A stretch of DNA of 64,000 bases from positions 1 to 64,000 of the forward strand of contig NZ_LMUM01000021.1 in the NCBI RefSeq assembly GCF_009765985.1, in the 5' to 3' direction. The notes beneath the pieces were generated by a model, which was not told where the DNA came from, searched no databases, and saw only the letters and a program-made list of their open reading frames with translations. This DNA comes from Acidobacterium sp. S8 (GTDB lineage Bacteria > Acidobacteriota > Terriglobia > Terriglobales > Acidobacteriaceae). Position numbers and translations under genes: made by a program. Shown here one piece after another: positions 20,145-58,192 of this stretch (its first letter is position 1; every line of letters begins with the position of its first letter).

Positions 20145-20984
20145 TTACAGCAACAGGTTATCGATCAGGCGCGTGTTGCCTACGAATGCGGCGACCGCTG
20201 CCAGCGCGCCGTTGCGCGTGTCAGAGATATCTTCGAGCGTTTCGGGATTGACCAGGGCGACGTAATCGATGCGGACTTCCGGTTCTTCGGCGAAGACGCC
20301 GCGGGCGGTCTCGATCAGCTTTTCCGCCGAACTCTCACCCGCTGATGCGGCATCTTTTACCTTGCCCAGCGCTCGCGATAGCGTCAGCGCCTGTTGGCGT
20401 TCTCTGGCTGACAGATAGCGGTTGCGTGAGCTCATCGCCAACCCATCAGCTTCGCGCACGATGGGGCAGACGACCATCTGCAATGGAAAATTCAGATCGC
20501 GCACCATCTTGCTCAGCACCGCGACCTGGGCCGCGTCTTTTTGCCCGAAATACGCTTTGTGCGGCACGGCGATATGGAAGAGTTTGCTGACGACGGTGGT
20601 GACGCCGCGGAAATGGCCCGGCCGCGAGGCGCCATCGAGCCTTTCGCTCACCCCCTCGACGTTGACAAAGGTTGTGGCACCCGCCGGATACATCTCTTCG
20701 ACCATCGGTGCGAAGATCATGTGCACGCCTTCGCGTTTGAGCAGTGCGCAGTCTTCGTCGAAGGTTCGGGGATATTTACTGAAGTCCTCGTTAGGGCCAA
20801 ATTGCGTTGGGTTTACGAAAATGGAAACAGCCACGACATCGCACTCGGCACGGGCTGCCCGCACCAGCGAAAGATGGCCTTCGTGCAGCGCTCCCATCGT
20901 CGGCACGAGGCCAAGGATGCGGCCTTCGCCGCGCAACTGGGCGCAGGCAGACTGCGCCTCGCGAACGGTTTTGAAGATGAGCAT
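20145..20984 (-). CDS. panC: Pantothenate synthetase (pantoate--beta-alanine ligase)
   Basis: A 279-residue enzyme of the nucleotidyltransferase class that joins pantoate and beta-alanine with ATP, the last step of pantothenate synthesis. The HIGH-type motif is in GLVPTMGALHEGHLSLVRAA (residues 25-44), followed by VSIFVNPTQFGPNEDFSKYPR and FGQKDAAQ. The KMSKS-like site is DGLAMSSRN near residue 185. The length is normal. It starts five bases after the end of panB and is clearly in one operon with it. Confidence 0.97.
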   Translation of the reverse strand: MLIFKTVREAQSACAQLRGEGRILGLVPTMGALHEGHLSLVRAARAECDVVAVSIFVNPTQFGPNEDFSKYPRTFDEDCALLKREGVHMIFAPMVEEMYPAGATTFVNVEGVSERLDGASRPGHFRGVTTVVSKLFHIAVPHKAYFGQKDAAQVAVLSKMVRDLNFPLQMVVCPIVREADGLAMSSRNRYLSARERQQALTLSRALGKVKDAASAGESSAEKLIETARGVFAEEPEVRIDYVALVNPETLEDISDTRNGALAAVAAFVGNTRLIDNLLL

Positions 20985-20989
20985 GGCGG

Positions 20990-21898
20990 TTATGCTTTGC
21001 GGCGCAGCGGCGATGCGGATTCCAGCGCTGCGCGTGTTTCTTTGGTCAGATGGTAGCTTTCGCTTTCGTTAGGAAATTCGCGCTTTTCGACATCCTGCAG
21101 ATAGCCTTCGATGGCTGTGCGGAAGAGCCCTGCAGCGTCGCCGTACTGGCGGACGAATTTGGCGGGCTTCGAAAAGCTGAGATTCACGAGATCGTGGAAG
21201 ACGAGAATCTGGCCATCGCAATCGGGGCCAGCGCCGATGCCGATGGTGGGAACGTTGAGCTTCGCGGTTACGTGATGCGCGACTTCGCGGGGCATGCCTT
21301 CGAGCACAATGGCAACGGCTCCGGCAGATTCGAGGGCAAGCGCGTCGTGGAGGAGCGTGTCGGCTGCGGCCATCGATTTGCCCTGCACCTTGTAGCCGCC
21401 CATGCGGTGTACGGACTGCGGCGTGAGGCCGAGATGGCCGATGACGGGAATTTCGGCGTCCGTCAGGCGCTCGACTAGTTCGGCACGGTTGCGGCCGCCT
21501 TCGATCTTGACTGCCTCCGCGCCAGCTTCTTTCATAAAGCGGGCGGCGTTGGCTACGCCTTCCTGCACGCTGACGTGATACGAGCCGTAAGGCATGTCGG
21601 CTGCAACGATGGCGCGCTTGACGGCGCGGCGCACGGCGCGCGTGTGGTGCAGCATTTCGTCTACGGTGACGGGAAGCGTGGTGTCATAGCCGAGAACGAC
21701 TTGCGCGAGCGAATCGCCGACGAGGATGAGGTCGATTCCGGCTTCATCTACCAGCCGCGCGGTGGAGTAGTCGTAGGCAGTCAGCGCCGTAATCGGCTGG
21801 CCGTGCTGCTTTTTCTCTTGAAGTGTCTGGAAGGTTACTTTGGCGCGAGGCGCCGAGGCATTTTGCGCGTCTGCGCTACAGAAATTTGTCACACTCAT
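20990..21898 (-). CDS. panB: 3-methyl-2-oxobutanoate hydroxymethyltransferase
   Basis: A 302-residue enzyme that makes ketopantoate from 2-oxoisovalerate and 5,10-methylenetetrahydrofolate, the committed step of pantothenate synthesis. Seen are the metal-site LVGDSLAQVVLGYDTT, MPYGSYHVSVQ, AVKIEGG, IPVIGHLGLTPQSVH and IVLEGMP, plus the GIGAGPDCDGQILVFHDL segment. It starts at an ATG at 21898 with GGAGAC upstream; the longer frame from 21934 adds unrelated residues. panC follows at once, so both are made together. Confidence 0.97.
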   Translation of the reverse strand: MSVTNFCSADAQNASAPRAKVTFQTLQEKKQHGQPITALTAYDYSTARLVDEAGIDLILVGDSLAQVVLGYDTTLPVTVDEMLHHTRAVRRAVKRAIVAADMPYGSYHVSVQEGVANAARFMKEAGAEAVKIEGGRNRAELVERLTDAEIPVIGHLGLTPQSVHRMGGYKVQGKSMAAADTLLHDALALESAGAVAIVLEGMPREVAHHVTAKLNVPTIGIGAGPDCDGQILVFHDLVNLSFSKPAKFVRQYGDAAGLFRTAIEGYLQDVEKREFPNESESYHLTKETRAALESASPLRRKA

Positions 21899-22004
21899 GA
21901 TTGTCTCCAGTGCGGCTCCCTTGCGGGATGCCACCCGAACCCAATTACCGACTATACGCTTTTGATGCGGGCCGCGTATAGTCGATGCGCGTCGCGATGA
22001 TCGC

Positions 22005-22400
22005 TCACAGTTCGTACTGTTCGTCGCTGACGTGCTCCATCCAGTCCACGACTTTGCCCTCTAACCGCTCCTGAATTGAGATGTGAGTCATGGCGGTGCT
22101 TGGGGTAGCGCCGTGCCAATGCTTCTCGCCCGGCGCGAACCAGACCACATCTCCGGGGTGAACTTCCTCGATCGGGCCGCCTTCCCGCTGAGCCCATCCG
22201 CAGCCTGCGGTGACTATCAATGTCTGCCCGAGGGGATGCGTATGCCAGGCGGTACGAGCTCCTGGCTCAAATGTAACGCTGGCACCACCTACCAATGCGG
22301 GGTCGGGAGCTTGAAAGAGCGGGTCAATGCGGACGGTGCCGGTAAACCAGTCTGCCGGCCCTATGCTGGATGGCTGCGAGCCGATGCGTTTGATTTCCAT
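22005..22400 (-). CDS. Cupin-domain protein
   Basis: A 131-residue single-domain cupin. The first cupin motif is in [19 protein letters not shown], the second in [18 protein letters not shown], so the metal-binding histidines and glutamine region look intact. This type, with [18 protein letters not shown], is close to the cupins often paired with carboxymuconolactone decarboxylases. The AhpD-like gene indeed lies 56 bases upstream in the same direction. Possible roles are small-molecule isomerase or lyase, but the substrate is unknown. Confidence 0.85.
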
Positions 22401-22455
22401 GGGCCTATTTTATGGGTATTCGCATTGGCTCGCTCATCCGCATGTCAGGCAGATT

Positions 22456-22932
22456 TCAGCCCTTCGCTGCTAATGAAGCCGCCTGCGGCTGGTAGCTGCC
22501 AACCTCCGGGCGGAAGGCGATGGCGATGCGGTTCCAGCTGTTGATCTGCGTAATGGCGTAGGTAAGCTTGACCAGCTCCTCTTCACTGAACTGCAGACGC
22601 GCTTCGGCGTAGGCTTCTTCAGAAGCGTGGCCCTGCTGGATGTTGGTGATGGCTTCAGTCCAGGCCAACGCGGCGCGCTCACGGTCGGTGAAGAACGGAG
22701 CTTCGCGCCAGGCGGAGAGTGCGTAGATGCGCTGCCCGGTTTCGCCGTTGGCGCGGGCGTCTTTGCTATGCATATCGAGGCAGTAGGCGCAGCCATTGAG
22801 CTGCGAGGCGCGGAGCTTTACCAGTTCATAGAGTGACTGCTCAAGGCCACTGCGGCGAATGATGGCCTCAAGATGCAACATGGCTTGGTAGCCTTCGGGA
22901 AATGCTTTCTGATAGTCCAGACGTCTTTCCAT
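22456..22932 (-). CDS. Carboxymuconolactone decarboxylase family protein (AhpD-like)
   Basis: A 158-residue helical protein of the AhpD/CMD superfamily. The redox centre CAYCLDMH near residue 48 (CxxC followed by His) is present, after LVKLRASQLNG. These proteins act as alkylhydroperoxidase partners or stress-linked disulfide reductases. The start codon lies in the left arm of a 14-bp inverted repeat that also contains a smaller palindrome, so expression is probably controlled at that site. It reads in the same direction as the cupin gene after it. Confidence 0.88.
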   Translation of the reverse strand: MERRLDYQKAFPEGYQAMLHLEAIIRRSGLEQSLYELVKLRASQLNGCAYCLDMHSKDARANGETGQRIYALSAWREAPFFTDRERAALAWTEAITNIQQGHASEEAYAEARLQFSEEELVKLTYAITQINSWNRIAIAFRPEVGSYQPQAASLAAKG

Positions 22933-22974
22933 GAATCACCTTTCTGTTACAGAAAAAAGATGATTCATGGAAAG
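22925..22974. promoter_or_regulatory. Nested palindrome over the AhpD-like start
   Basis: CTTTCCATGAATCA (22925-22938) and TGATTCATGGAAAG (22961-22974) are exact 14-base inverted arms. Inside them TTTCTGT (22941-22947) and ACAGAAA (22949-22955) form a second exact palindrome with a one-base centre. The left arm holds the minus-strand ATG of the AhpD-like gene; the right arm mirrors it with a plus-strand ATG. Confidence 0.7.
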
Positions 22975-22978
22975 GAAG

Positions 22979-23004
22979 GTCGCAGCTCTGCGACGAATTT
23001 TTTT
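22979..23004 (+). terminator. Plus-strand terminator-like hairpin
   Basis: GTCGCAG (22979-22985) pairs with CTGCGAC (22988-22994), followed by GAA and seven T bases (22998-23004). This is the form of a plus-strand intrinsic terminator, yet no plus-strand gene precedes it. It may end a short RNA starting in the nested palindrome, or serve weakly as terminator of the minus-strand gene that ends at 23003. Confidence 0.45.
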
Positions 23005-23455
23005 ATGGGCCGACGTAGAGCTCCATCGGGGAGAATCCGATCTGTTTTGTCTTGTGATCCACGCGCAGGAAGAGCGGGGTTTTGCCGCCGTTGATGTTCA
23101 CGCCCATCACGACACCGTTGCCCACGGTTTTGGAGATGGAGATCTGATGGCTGCGGATGACGCCGTAATCGCTGGACGGTCCCCAGTCTTTTTGAAACTG
23201 GTTGAAATCGTAGAGTTTATAGCGGTCAGGATGCTGCTGCCAGTCGGGATCGTTGTTCCAGAGGGCGTAAGCCTTGTTGAAATCCTTTGCCTCGACGGTT
23301 GAAAGGAAGTTGTTGACGCGATGCTCCTCGGGCCAGTTCCAGAACCACCACGTGGAAGCTGCGATGACCACGATGGCAATGACGCCGGCAATGATGGAGT
23401 TGCGAATGACGCGGGCACGGCTGGCGTTATATTTAGGCGCATCGAGCAGGGTCAT
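23003..23455 (-). CDS. Membrane-anchored protein of unknown function
   Basis: A 150-residue protein with one N-terminal transmembrane helix (IIAGVIAIVVIAASTWWFW, residues 20-38) and a soluble domain outside. The domain has WPEEHRVNNFLSTVEAKDFNKAYALWNND, the shape of an NTF2-like or DUF4864-type fold, and a beta-rich end (GKTPLFLRVDHKTKQIGF). I do not assign a family. It is read toward the AhpD-like gene with 70 bases between. Conserved-looking composition and a normal start support a real gene. Confidence 0.7.
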   Translation of the reverse strand: MTLLDAPKYNASRARVIRNSIIAGVIAIVVIAASTWWFWNWPEEHRVNNFLSTVEAKDFNKAYALWNNDPDWQQHPDRYKLYDFNQFQKDWGPSSDYGVIRSHQISISKTVGNGVVMGVNINGGKTPLFLRVDHKTKQIGFSPMELYVGP

Positions 23456-23581
23456 AAGCAGATGCTACTCCTTTCAGATGAGGGAGACGTGAGCCTCCTA
23501 TTTGTAACAGACACCGGAAAGGCCGGCTAAGTTTCCTCAGCGTATAAGAGGAGCATAGCTAAAGCCCGGTGCTTCTACCGC

Positions 23582-23649
23582 GAGCCGAAGACCAAGAATC
23601 CACGCTTAGCATGGCTTGAGATTTTTCGCCTTCGGCTCAGAATGACGGC
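23582..23649. repeat. Dispersed repeat copy (TCATTCTGA family), near ddl end
   Basis: GAGCCGAAG (23582-23590) pairs with CTTCGGCTC (23630-23638), and the right part GAGATTTTTCGCC...CAGAATGACGGC matches the family seen at 35370 and 47719. It lies just after the ddl stop. Confidence 0.6.
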
Positions 23650-23664
23650 CCTTTTTCTCCCGCA

Positions 23665-24843
23665 TCAGCGCGAATAGCTGGTGCGGTCCTTTTCGGTTTG
23701 GCGTTCGAGCGCGAGCTGGATCAGGCGGTCGATCAGATCGGGATAGGCCACGCCGGAGGCGGCCCAGAGCTTGGGATACATGCTGATGGAAGTGAAGCCG
23801 GGCAGGGTGTTGATTTCGTTCAGGTAGATGCGGGCGGATTTGCCGGGGTCTAACAGGAAATCGACCCGCGCGAGGCCGGAGCAGTCGCAGGCTTTGAAGG
23901 CTTCGATGGCCATCTGCTGCACCTGCTTCGTCTGTTGGCGCGTGAGCCTGGCCGGAATAATGAGGTCAGAACCTTCGCTCAGATACTTGGCTTCGTAATC
24001 GTAAAACTCTTTGATGGGCACGACTTCGCCGACGACCGAAGCTGACGGACTATCATTGCCGAGGACGGCGACTTCGAGCTCGCGTGCCTTGCCACGCTTG
24101 CCGCCAACTCCCTGTTCGATGACGATCTTGCGGTCGAAGCTGGCTGCCAGTTCAATGGCGGGTGAAAGCTCTTTGCGGTCATGCGCCTTGCTGATGCCGA
24201 CCGAGGAGCCGAGATTCGCAGGCTTTACGAAGACGGGGTATTTAAGCGCAGCTTCGACGCGGGTGACGATCTTCTTCGGACTTTTGACCCACTCGTTGCG
24301 TAGGAATGTGACGTGCTTCGTGATGGGCAGTTTTGCCGAGGCGAAGAGGCGTTTCATAACGTCCTTGTCCATGCCGGTGGCGGAGCCGAGGACACCTGAG
24401 CCAACATAGGCGATGCCTGCCAGCTCGAAGAGGCCTTGAATCGTGCCGTCTTCACCGAAGGTTCCGTGCAGGACGGGAAATACGACGTCGAGATTGAGGG
24501 CGTGGTGCGCTGGATTCCCTTGCGTCTCGAATGGCACCAGCGACCCGGTCTTATTCTTCGCAGGCACGGGCGGCACGATGACGGATTCACCTCTGGCCAG
24601 CACAGCGGCGGGCGCGGTGGCTGCGGGATCGCCTGCGCGAAGAGTGCTGGGCGCCGCCTCACCAGAGAGCAGGCGTTCGGCATGAGAGGACGTCACCCAG
24701 TGGCCTCCTTTCGTGATGCCGATGGGTATGACTTCGTACTTTTTCCTGTCGATAGCCTTGAGAACCGAAGCGGCTGAAAGCAGCGAGACTTCATGCTCGC
24801 CGCTACGGCCACCAAAGAGAACGCCTACGCGAAGTTTTGGCAT
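23665..24843 (-). CDS. ddl: D-alanine--D-alanine ligase
   Basis: A 392-residue ATP-grasp enzyme that makes the D-Ala-D-Ala dipeptide for peptidoglycan. Diagnostic segments are VGVLFGGRSGEHEVSLLSA at the start, FPVLHGTFGEDGTIQGLFELAGIAYVG, VKPANLGSSVGISKA, and at the end RVDFLLDP and IYLNEINTLPGFTSISMYPKLW. The length fits DdlA-type enzymes; a 30-residue linker after the first strand (about residues 60-90) is longer than usual. It is a single gene, not in a cell-wall cluster here. Confidence 0.96.
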   Translation of the reverse strand: MPKLRVGVLFGGRSGEHEVSLLSAASVLKAIDRKKYEVIPIGITKGGHWVTSSHAERLLSGEAAPSTLRAGDPAATAPAAVLARGESVIVPPVPAKNKTGSLVPFETQGNPAHHALNLDVVFPVLHGTFGEDGTIQGLFELAGIAYVGSGVLGSATGMDKDVMKRLFASAKLPITKHVTFLRNEWVKSPKKIVTRVEAALKYPVFVKPANLGSSVGISKAHDRKELSPAIELAASFDRKIVIEQGVGGKRGKARELEVAVLGNDSPSASVVGEVVPIKEFYDYEAKYLSEGSDLIIPARLTRQQTKQVQQMAIEAFKACDCSGLARVDFLLDPGKSARIYLNEINTLPGFTSISMYPKLWAASGVAYPDLIDRLIQLALERQTEKDRTSYSR

Positions 24844-47802: not shown

Positions 47803-47876
47803 CTTTTGTTCTTGGTCGCTGTAGGAAATTTTCTATGAGCGCTTTGCAGCAGTGATGGATTGTGACTACATATAAC

Positions 47877-47911
47877 AAAAAGCCGCAGATCAGACTGATC
47901 TGCGGCTTTTT
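47877..47911. terminator. Bidirectional intrinsic terminator
   Basis: AGCCGCAGATCAG (47881-47893) and CTGATCTGCGGCT (47895-47907) are exact 13-base arms around a single A, flanked by five A on the left and TTTTT on the right. It lies between the convergent msrA and receptor genes and is a textbook two-way Rho-independent terminator. Confidence 0.92.
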
Positions 47912-47943
47912 GTATTTCTGCTGGTTAAACCGTTCAGCTCGAA

Positions 47944-57469: not shown

Positions 57470-57498
57470 ACGCTAGCACCGTGGTTTCTGAGGGTCAA
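57470..57498 (-). promoter_or_regulatory. Candidate promoter of the gcv operon
   Basis: On the minus strand TTGACC (57498-57493) and TAGCGT (57475-57470) are separated by 17 bases, close to the sigma-70 pattern. The site is 40 bases before the gcvT GTG. The -35 box overlaps the end of vapC. The leader would be about 30 bases, too short for a glycine riboswitch. Confidence 0.5.
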
Positions 57499-57890
57499 TC
57501 TATCGCAGCCGACTGCACATCAGTCAGTGCAAAATCATTTCCCTTATAAAGCAGTGGTTGTTCTTCGCTTTTCGCCAGCGCATAGGAGAAGCAATCTCCC
57601 AGGTTAAGACCTGCCGGATGTTTGCCTTTCCCAAATTCCTGATATGCCTGACATGCGATTTCCGCGTGACGAACATCGACCGAAGCAACATCCACCTGGG
57701 CGCGCTTCAAAAACTGATCCAACTTCTGCCTGCCGCGCTCCCCTTTCCGAGTGCGCAGAACGATCGAAGCTTCCACGAAATTCACAGCAGAACAAAGTCG
57801 AATGCGGTCCTGGCTGATCTTGTGGACGAATAAGCCGGCTTCTTGTTCCTCCAGAAGAATGGCAAGAATGGCTGACGTATCGATCACCAT
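57495..57890 (-). CDS. vapC: VapC-type PIN-domain toxin
   Basis: A 131-residue PIN ribonuclease. The acidic sites are seen in VIDTSAILAILL (Asp4), EASIVL (Glu), and LGDCFSYALAKSE (Asp near 99), with the final YKGNDFALTDV. VapC toxins cut RNA, often tRNA. The ATG at 57890 overlaps the vapB stop by one base (TGATG), the usual translationally coupled toxin-antitoxin arrangement. A frame-opening TTG one codon earlier is not needed. Confidence 0.9.
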   Translation of the reverse strand: MVIDTSAILAILLEEQEAGLFVHKISQDRIRLCSAVNFVEASIVLRTRKGERGRQKLDQFLKRAQVDVASVDVRHAEIACQAYQEFGKGKHPAGLNLGDCFSYALAKSEEQPLLYKGNDFALTDVQSAAID

Positions 57891-58156
57891 CAAGCGGGAA
57901 GCCCTTCGGCATCATACCCAAGAATCTCATCGGCAGATCGCACATCCAGATCCGGCAAAGCGGAGCACTGTTTTGCGATGCGCAATAAATCTTTTTCTAA
58001 TTGCGTGGCGCCTTGTCCCGAGCGATGATCCGGGCGCAGCCGCGCCAGTCTTTCCTCAATGGCGCGCTCGGCGGCTTCGGTCAGGGATTCTCCGGTAAGT
58101 CGCGCAAGCCTGCGAGCCAACTTTTCGACATTCGGATTTTTAATGTAAAGCGCCAT
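57890..58156 (-). CDS. vapB: VapB-type antitoxin
   Basis: An 88-residue antitoxin of the Rv0623 type. It begins ALYIKNPNVEKLARRLARLTGESLTEAAERAIEERLARL, the ribbon-helix-helix DNA-binding N-terminus plus helix, and the C-terminal part wraps the toxin. The ATG at 58156 lies inside the left arm of a 45-base inverted repeat, so the complex can repress its own translation or transcription. It is immediately upstream of vapC and its start overlaps the operator. Confidence 0.9.
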   Translation of the reverse strand: MALYIKNPNVEKLARRLARLTGESLTEAAERAIEERLARLRPDHRSGQGATQLEKDLLRIAKQCSALPDLDVRSADEILGYDAEGLPA

Positions 58157-58192
58157 GGATATCCCTTGCATTTCAGTATATCCAAGGCGCTT
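58148..58192. promoter_or_regulatory. VapBC operator overlapping the vapB start
   Basis: AAGCGCCATGGATAT (58148-58162) and ATATCCAAGGCGCTT (58178-58192) match as inverted arms at 14 of 15 positions, around 15 bases. The left arm holds the vapB ATG. GGATAT and ATATCC make the core. This fits a VapBC autorepression site. Confidence 0.72.

Follow-up and report, generated by a model that had tools for sequence, protein, structure and literature searches.

The locus lies in a 64,000-nt stretch of Acidobacterium sp. S8 (contig NZ_LMUM01000021.1, positions 1 to 64,000; hereafter the window), where a minus-strand gene of the CMD/AhpD family starts inside an inverted repeat (Table 1). The gene product matched the Pfam family PF02627 with 82.7 bits (cut-off 23) and the AhpD core domain model TIGR00778 with 64.5 bits (cut-off 27.8). 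Since the full-length AhpD model TIGR00777 gave only 27.4 against a cut-off of 191.95, we refer to the product as AhpD-like rather than AhpD. Four genomes of the genus were compared, and one of these, G001, carries the only close syntenic orthologue (87%). Between the two orthologues dN was 0.072 and dS ∼2.3 (saturated), giving a dN/dS of ∼0.03; this low dN with saturated dS indicates that the protein is under strong purifying selection.

Upstream on the same strand are a gene for a 150-aa protein and then the D-Ala-D-Ala ligase gene (ddl), and downstream are a cupin gene, panB and panC. The 150-aa gene is present in 364 of the 398 genomes of the family that were searched and, among the matches listed, adjoins the AhpD-like gene only in Acidobacterium sp. 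S8 and G001. In G001, the position of the cupin gene is taken by a different frame in the opposite orientation. A terminator-like hairpin lies between the end of the upstream gene and the inverted repeat. It reads on the plus strand, right after the repeat, in contrast to the minus-strand genes assigned on either side; given a plus-strand promoter inside ahpD, this terminator would stop a short antisense transcript that covers the start. No such terminator was seen in the G001 leader.

Table 1. Features at and around the start of the AhpD-like gene (window coordinates)
Feature	Position	Strand	Description
Cupin gene	22005..22400	-	Downstream gene; NCBIfam (R)-mandelonitrile lyase match
CMD/AhpD-family gene	22456..22932	-	PF02627; TIGR00778 AhpD core domain; product 158 aa
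Inverted repeat	22925..22974		Realigned as one repeat
Exact outer arms	22925..22938 and 22961..22974		14 nt each; spacer 22 nt
Gene-side arm	22925..22946	-	Carries the Shine-Dalgarno sequence (AAAGGTG) and, after a spacer, the ATG with 5 further bases of the AhpD-like coding sequence; 3′ arm of the RNA hairpin
Inner palindrome	22941..22955		TTTCTGTTACAGAAA; tip of the same hairpin
Loop of the realigned repeat	22947..22949		3 nt; TTA on plus, TAA in sense
Upstream mirror arm	22950..22974	-	5′ arm of the sense RNA hairpin; differs by a 3-nt T-run insertion (A-run on plus) and one substitution
Terminator-like hairpin	22979..23004	+	GTCGCAGCTCTGCGAC then T7; weak tail on minus
Upstream gene	23003..23455	-	150 aa; no Pfam or NCBIfam match

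The plus strand of the repeat reads CTTTCCATGAATCACCTTTCTG TTA CAGAAAAAAGATGATTCATGGAAAG. The initial annotation had described exact 14-base arms enclosing an exact palindrome with 7-base arms, and had placed the true start of the AhpD-like gene in the left arm and its mirror image in the right. Both sequences are present and the gene does start in the left arm. The two palindromes are not, however, separate elements. When the left 22 nt were reverse-complemented and aligned with the right 25 nt, 21 of 22 positions matched, with one mismatch and one 3-nt gap in an A-run. The whole thus realigns as a single inverted repeat with 22-nt arms and a 3-nt loop, interrupted by a 3-nt insertion and one substitution, and the start signals are indeed duplicated in inverted form within it. 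The apparent nesting arises from the insertion, since the outer and inner dyads (centred at 22949.5 and 22948) are offset by 1.5 bp, which is half of 3 nt. In the sense RNA, the arm mismatch becomes a U-G pair.

The mirror arm necessarily contains an ATG, as the reverse complement of CATG is again CATG. The plus-strand frame that uses this mirrored ATG (22967-23302) was rejected as a gene: it has no Pfam match, is antisense to the upstream gene and is followed by the plus-strand terminator. On the sense strand, a short frame of 10 codons runs from the mirror-arm ATG to a TGA 3 nt before the true ATG. By eye, no Shine-Dalgarno sequence precedes this frame, and a short frame in the G001 leader has no peptide similarity to it; translational coupling was dismissed.

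Allowing gaps, the local hairpin score of the start region (-60 to +25) was 16. Dinucleotide shuffles of this region had a mean score of 6.0 and a maximum of 12, and none of the 1500 reached 16, which excludes a chance repeat. The score also ranked first among 549 gene starts, drawn from 864 kb of the S8 genome and 400 kb of G001 by a simple rule (an ORF of at least 120 aa, an ATG and a Shine-Dalgarno-like motif) that lets in some wrong starts. Long exact inverted repeats as such are not rare in the S8 genome. Exact arms of at least 14 nt with a spacer of at most 40 nt occurred 20 times in the 864 kb, and not at all in any of five 400-kb first-order Markov simulations. Spacers were 0-9 nt in 17 of these 20 cases and at least 20 nt in three, the AhpD-like repeat included. 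By eye, several of the 20 resemble terminators, with A/T-rich ends, or regulator palindromes. Such repeats could suggest an intrinsic terminator here as well, but no T-run follows the stem on either strand and the repeat is absent from the terminator-scan list; we regard a terminator or chance repeat as hardly credible. Elsewhere in the window (47875-47913), a perfect inverted repeat with 19-nt arms, a 1-nt spacer and A/T ends is probably a two-way terminator.

We examined the predicted folding of the sense RNA of the repeat, which has a z-score of -6.3. The predicted hairpin buries both the AAAGGTG Shine-Dalgarno sequence and the AUG, and opening the region from -14 to +3 was calculated to cost 26.0 kcal/mol, the highest value of the 549 starts. 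A heat-sensor reading was dropped, because folding predictions keep the stem intact at 55-60°C. A search of 22300-23700 with Rfam 15 gave nothing above gathering score; its five matches at E ≤ 1 were all to microRNA families, the best with 26.1 bits against a gathering score of 86. If the upstream arm is transcribed, it would pair with the start region, hide the Shine-Dalgarno sequence and AUG and lower translation. The hairpin may therefore throttle translation as a damper acting in cis.

The proposed damping depends on where transcription starts, since an mRNA that begins inside the repeat lacks the upstream arm and forms no hairpin. Only read-through transcripts would then be affected by the hairpin. 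In the fold-back of IS10, read-through transcripts fold and escape translation. A guard of this kind at the AhpD-like gene would leave long upstream transcripts folded and untranslated, while transcripts starting inside the repeat would be translated. The terminator-like stem just upstream and the same-direction upstream gene are in keeping with such a guard, but no sigma-70-like promoter was found on the minus strand in 22440-23650, a result that does not settle whether the upstream arm is transcribed. In addition, the terms 'inverted repeat', 'read-through' and 'fold-back' do not occur in the available part of an IS10 paper (PMC5006887). We consider a read-through guard very unlikely. GCATCC and CGCATC were ∼threefold enriched upstream of the 549 starts over simple base shuffles (22 genes each compared with ∼6.6). 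As a leader motif marking transcription starts, GCATCC failed to locate one; it is spread over -60 to -20 with no fixed distance to the ATG.

The initial annotation had proposed that the start region was duplicated around an operator, as a regulator site blocking both polymerase and ribosome, and had suggested conservation in relatives as a check. Of the two blocks, that of the ribosome is plausible through RNA folding and needs no protein, while no evidence was found for that of polymerase. Neither the inner motif nor the outer arm, used to search for a regulon, gave a recurrent site. Within one mismatch, TTTCTGTTACAGAAA is single in the 5.4-Mb genome, and at up to two mismatches it has 15 places, its own included, compared with 21 for a reversed control. 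The outer arm has no other exact copy and five other places at one mismatch. At up to two mismatches there are 49 arm matches (its own two and these five included), which we take as background since ∼35 are expected for uniform bases, although the reversed control was lower (6). Further, the inner and outer half-sites have no common dyad, and the six neighbouring genes tested (20145-24843) gave no match to a DNA-binding regulator family; the cupin encoded downstream additionally scores above the cut-off of the Pfam AraC ligand-binding domain (23.1 vs 21.1 bits). Conservation in relatives, the lack of which the initial annotation had named as refuting its proposal, was likewise not seen at the sequence level: of 115 homologous start regions, only that of the S8 locus contains the arms or the inner motif as exact matches. 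Because motif recurrence and a common dyad both failed, we do not class the feature as an operator.

Palindromes do occur at other gene starts of the S8 genome. By eye, GTTATCATGGTACA/TGTACCATGATAAC (contig C27, 220306-220335) lies at a likely gene start and also has a mirrored ATG, and TATACACTGTATA/TATACAGTGTATA (contig C29, 190718-190752) precedes a TetR-like frame. Such sites lend some plausibility to a dimeric DNA-binding regulator overlapping the AhpD-like start, but given the recurrence, dyad, neighbourhood and homologue results, and the realignment as a single hairpin, we judge an operator to be highly improbable.

The homologue set comprised 119 loci, of which 115 had a usable start and 100 nt upstream; 110 of these were distinct, and 107 had at least 50% identity. 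The G001 leader has neither the arms nor the inner motif, and its upstream region is 36% identical to that of S8. In nearly the same place, however, G001 has a different helix, ATTCCCTCC/GGAGGGAAT, that is predicted to hide the Shine-Dalgarno sequence and ends before the AUG. Opening this start costs 16.9 kcal/mol, and the G001 hairpin is only moderately unusual: it ranks ninth of 549 with itself and S8 counted, its hairpin score was reached by 13 of 1500 shuffles, and with G001 considered alone, two of 29 paired starts are as closed. The other 105 of the 107 distinct homologues are less closed, and none reaches 16.8 kcal/mol. One of them, G090, encodes a protein with 86% identity and has an ordinary start (opening 6.7, hairpin score 4, matched by all 1500 shuffles). 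In a distant homologue, a hairpin with a score of 9 lies at -50 to -29, clear of the start.

When each pair is scored by its lower opening cost, the AhpD-like gene ranks first among 29 orthologous start pairs of S8 and G001, some of which are doubtful frames. Opening costs correlate between orthologues of these two genomes in general (rho 0.59, n = 29; in an earlier set of 12 pairs, rho 0.66, or 0.55 without the AhpD-like gene). Since the gene was chosen because of S8, only G001 is independent, and the shared start-hiding structure is suggestive rather than proof.

What, then, produced the repeat? The repeat has the look of a recent copying accident confined to this lineage rather than that of a conserved regulator site. 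While the DNA was being replicated, the nascent strand could have paired with itself at a small palindrome (for instance TTTCTG-TAA-CAGAAA) and been copied through the start region, in a quasipalindrome template switch. The product would have been a perfect 22-bp hairpin; a single base change (C to T, provided that the upstream arm was hit) and the expansion of a run by three T would have followed. The arms that match at 21 of 22 positions, the 3-nt loop and the one 3-nt insertion are in keeping with this type of event. With a single substitution in 22 pairs, saturated synonymous sites and occurrence in one genome, the repeat should be either young or maintained. As TTCATGGAAA on the coding side is shared with G001 and its mirror copy is not, the upstream arm is probably the copy. 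The intergenic stretch is 70 nt, compared with 62 nt in G001. This difference of 8 nt does not fit a plain insertion of an arm, and we therefore assume replacement. With one syntenic relative, whose leader aligns only weakly to that of S8 (4 of 500 shuffles scored as high), there is no direct view of the event or of its direction.

We give about even chances to the combined reading, in which the start region was copied in inverted form in this lineage, the mRNA folds into a long hairpin over the Shine-Dalgarno sequence and AUG, and full-length transcripts are poorly translated. Most likely, then, the repeat is an ordinary mutational product, and its effect on expression is possibly interesting. 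A template switch could instead have left a scar that does not alter expression, either because the transcription start lies within the repeat or because the gene sees little use; such a scar will decay. Consistent with a neutral scar, the repeat is found in one genome only among the homologues examined, both arm differences can be assigned to the non-coding arm and G090 lacks such a hairpin. Against it stand the purifying selection on the coding gene and the strongest predicted start-hiding hairpin of 549, from which some effect is expected if the arm is transcribed. We hold a neutral scar to be possible but doubtful.

The different Shine-Dalgarno-hiding hairpin of G001 is not predicted by a pure accident and counts against the combined reading. 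It would instead suit a selected translational switch at genus level, in which a hairpin is kept in the ddl/150-aa gene/ahpD setting while its sequence turns over, and is opened by a small RNA, protein or ligand signal. The first rank among the ortholog pairs, reached despite the low upstream identity, also points this way. Yet only two genomes are involved, G001 on its own is not exceptional among the paired starts, and the two helices differ in register, that of G001 stopping short of the AUG. The less closed starts of G090 and 104 other distinct homologues, the lack of an Rfam family at gathering score and the predicted folding up to 55-60°C also argue against a switch, which we regard as unlikely. 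Another proposal, also unlikely in our view, is that members of the genus retain a start-hiding hairpin upstream of this gene but replace the hairpin's sequence entirely, perhaps through repeated template switches by which the constrained start is copied anew. The gate would then be renewed by mutation and not by pairwise compensatory changes.

The combined reading, of an accidental copy that damps translation, joins two kinds of event that are already known: template-switch repeats and start-sequestering leaders. In E. coli, work with thyA and lacZ reporters has established that template switching can turn quasipalindromes into perfect ones, according to the accessible part of that study (PMC7202029). 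As in those mutations, the S8 repeat has a small loop and near-perfect arms that nascent-strand self-copying can explain. In the E. coli cases described there, the states before and after are known, unlike here, where the ancestor is not at hand. Reconstructed histories indicate that template switches can also create RNA hairpins in one event, as set out in the portion of PMC8794818 that we could consult, and a perfect stem made in this way can then function in RNA. Those hairpins belong to RNA genes, whereas the segment copied in S8 is the ribosome-binding site of a protein gene.

mRNA leaders that sequester the start codon or Shine-Dalgarno sequence form a general class. In agreement, the ribosome-binding site and AUG of the AhpD-like gene are paired in the predicted sense RNA. 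One member of the class is tisB, with a sequestered ribosome-binding site (PMC7708055, in the part available). The predicted S8 stem resembles such leaders in holding the ribosome-binding site in a stable structure and differs in that neither a trigger nor a standby site nor a partner RNA is known for it.

Genes of the CMD family, to which the AhpD-like gene belongs, are also targets of ECF41-type promoters, as stated in the accessible text of PMC3426412. No exact match to the ECF41 promoter TGTCACA-N14-18-CGTC was found in the window, the search covering the CGTC form, and unlike in ECF41 systems, no sigma gene is among the six neighbouring genes tested.

If the combined reading is true, the S8 locus would be a clean natural case in which a single replication error puts a strong brake on the translation of a gene, and would explain how a 'mirrored start codon' can arise without any regulator. 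If turnover also preserves a hairpin in congeners, the locus would bear on the origin and persistence of RNA stems in the leaders of protein genes.

A second start-enclosing hairpin was found in the window. The repeat AAGCGCCTTGGATAT/ATATCCATGGCGCTT (58148-58192, minus strand) includes position 58156, the likely ATG of a gene for a VapB-like antitoxin (57890-58171); a PIN-like toxin gene (57495-57893) follows, and both names are from protein appearance. Opening this start is predicted to cost 17.2 kcal/mol, and its hairpin score of 12 is the second of the 549 starts. Of 20 loci compared, the start could be placed in six, its own included, with an 83% relative in G001 among those not placed, and the other five had values of 2.3-12.1.
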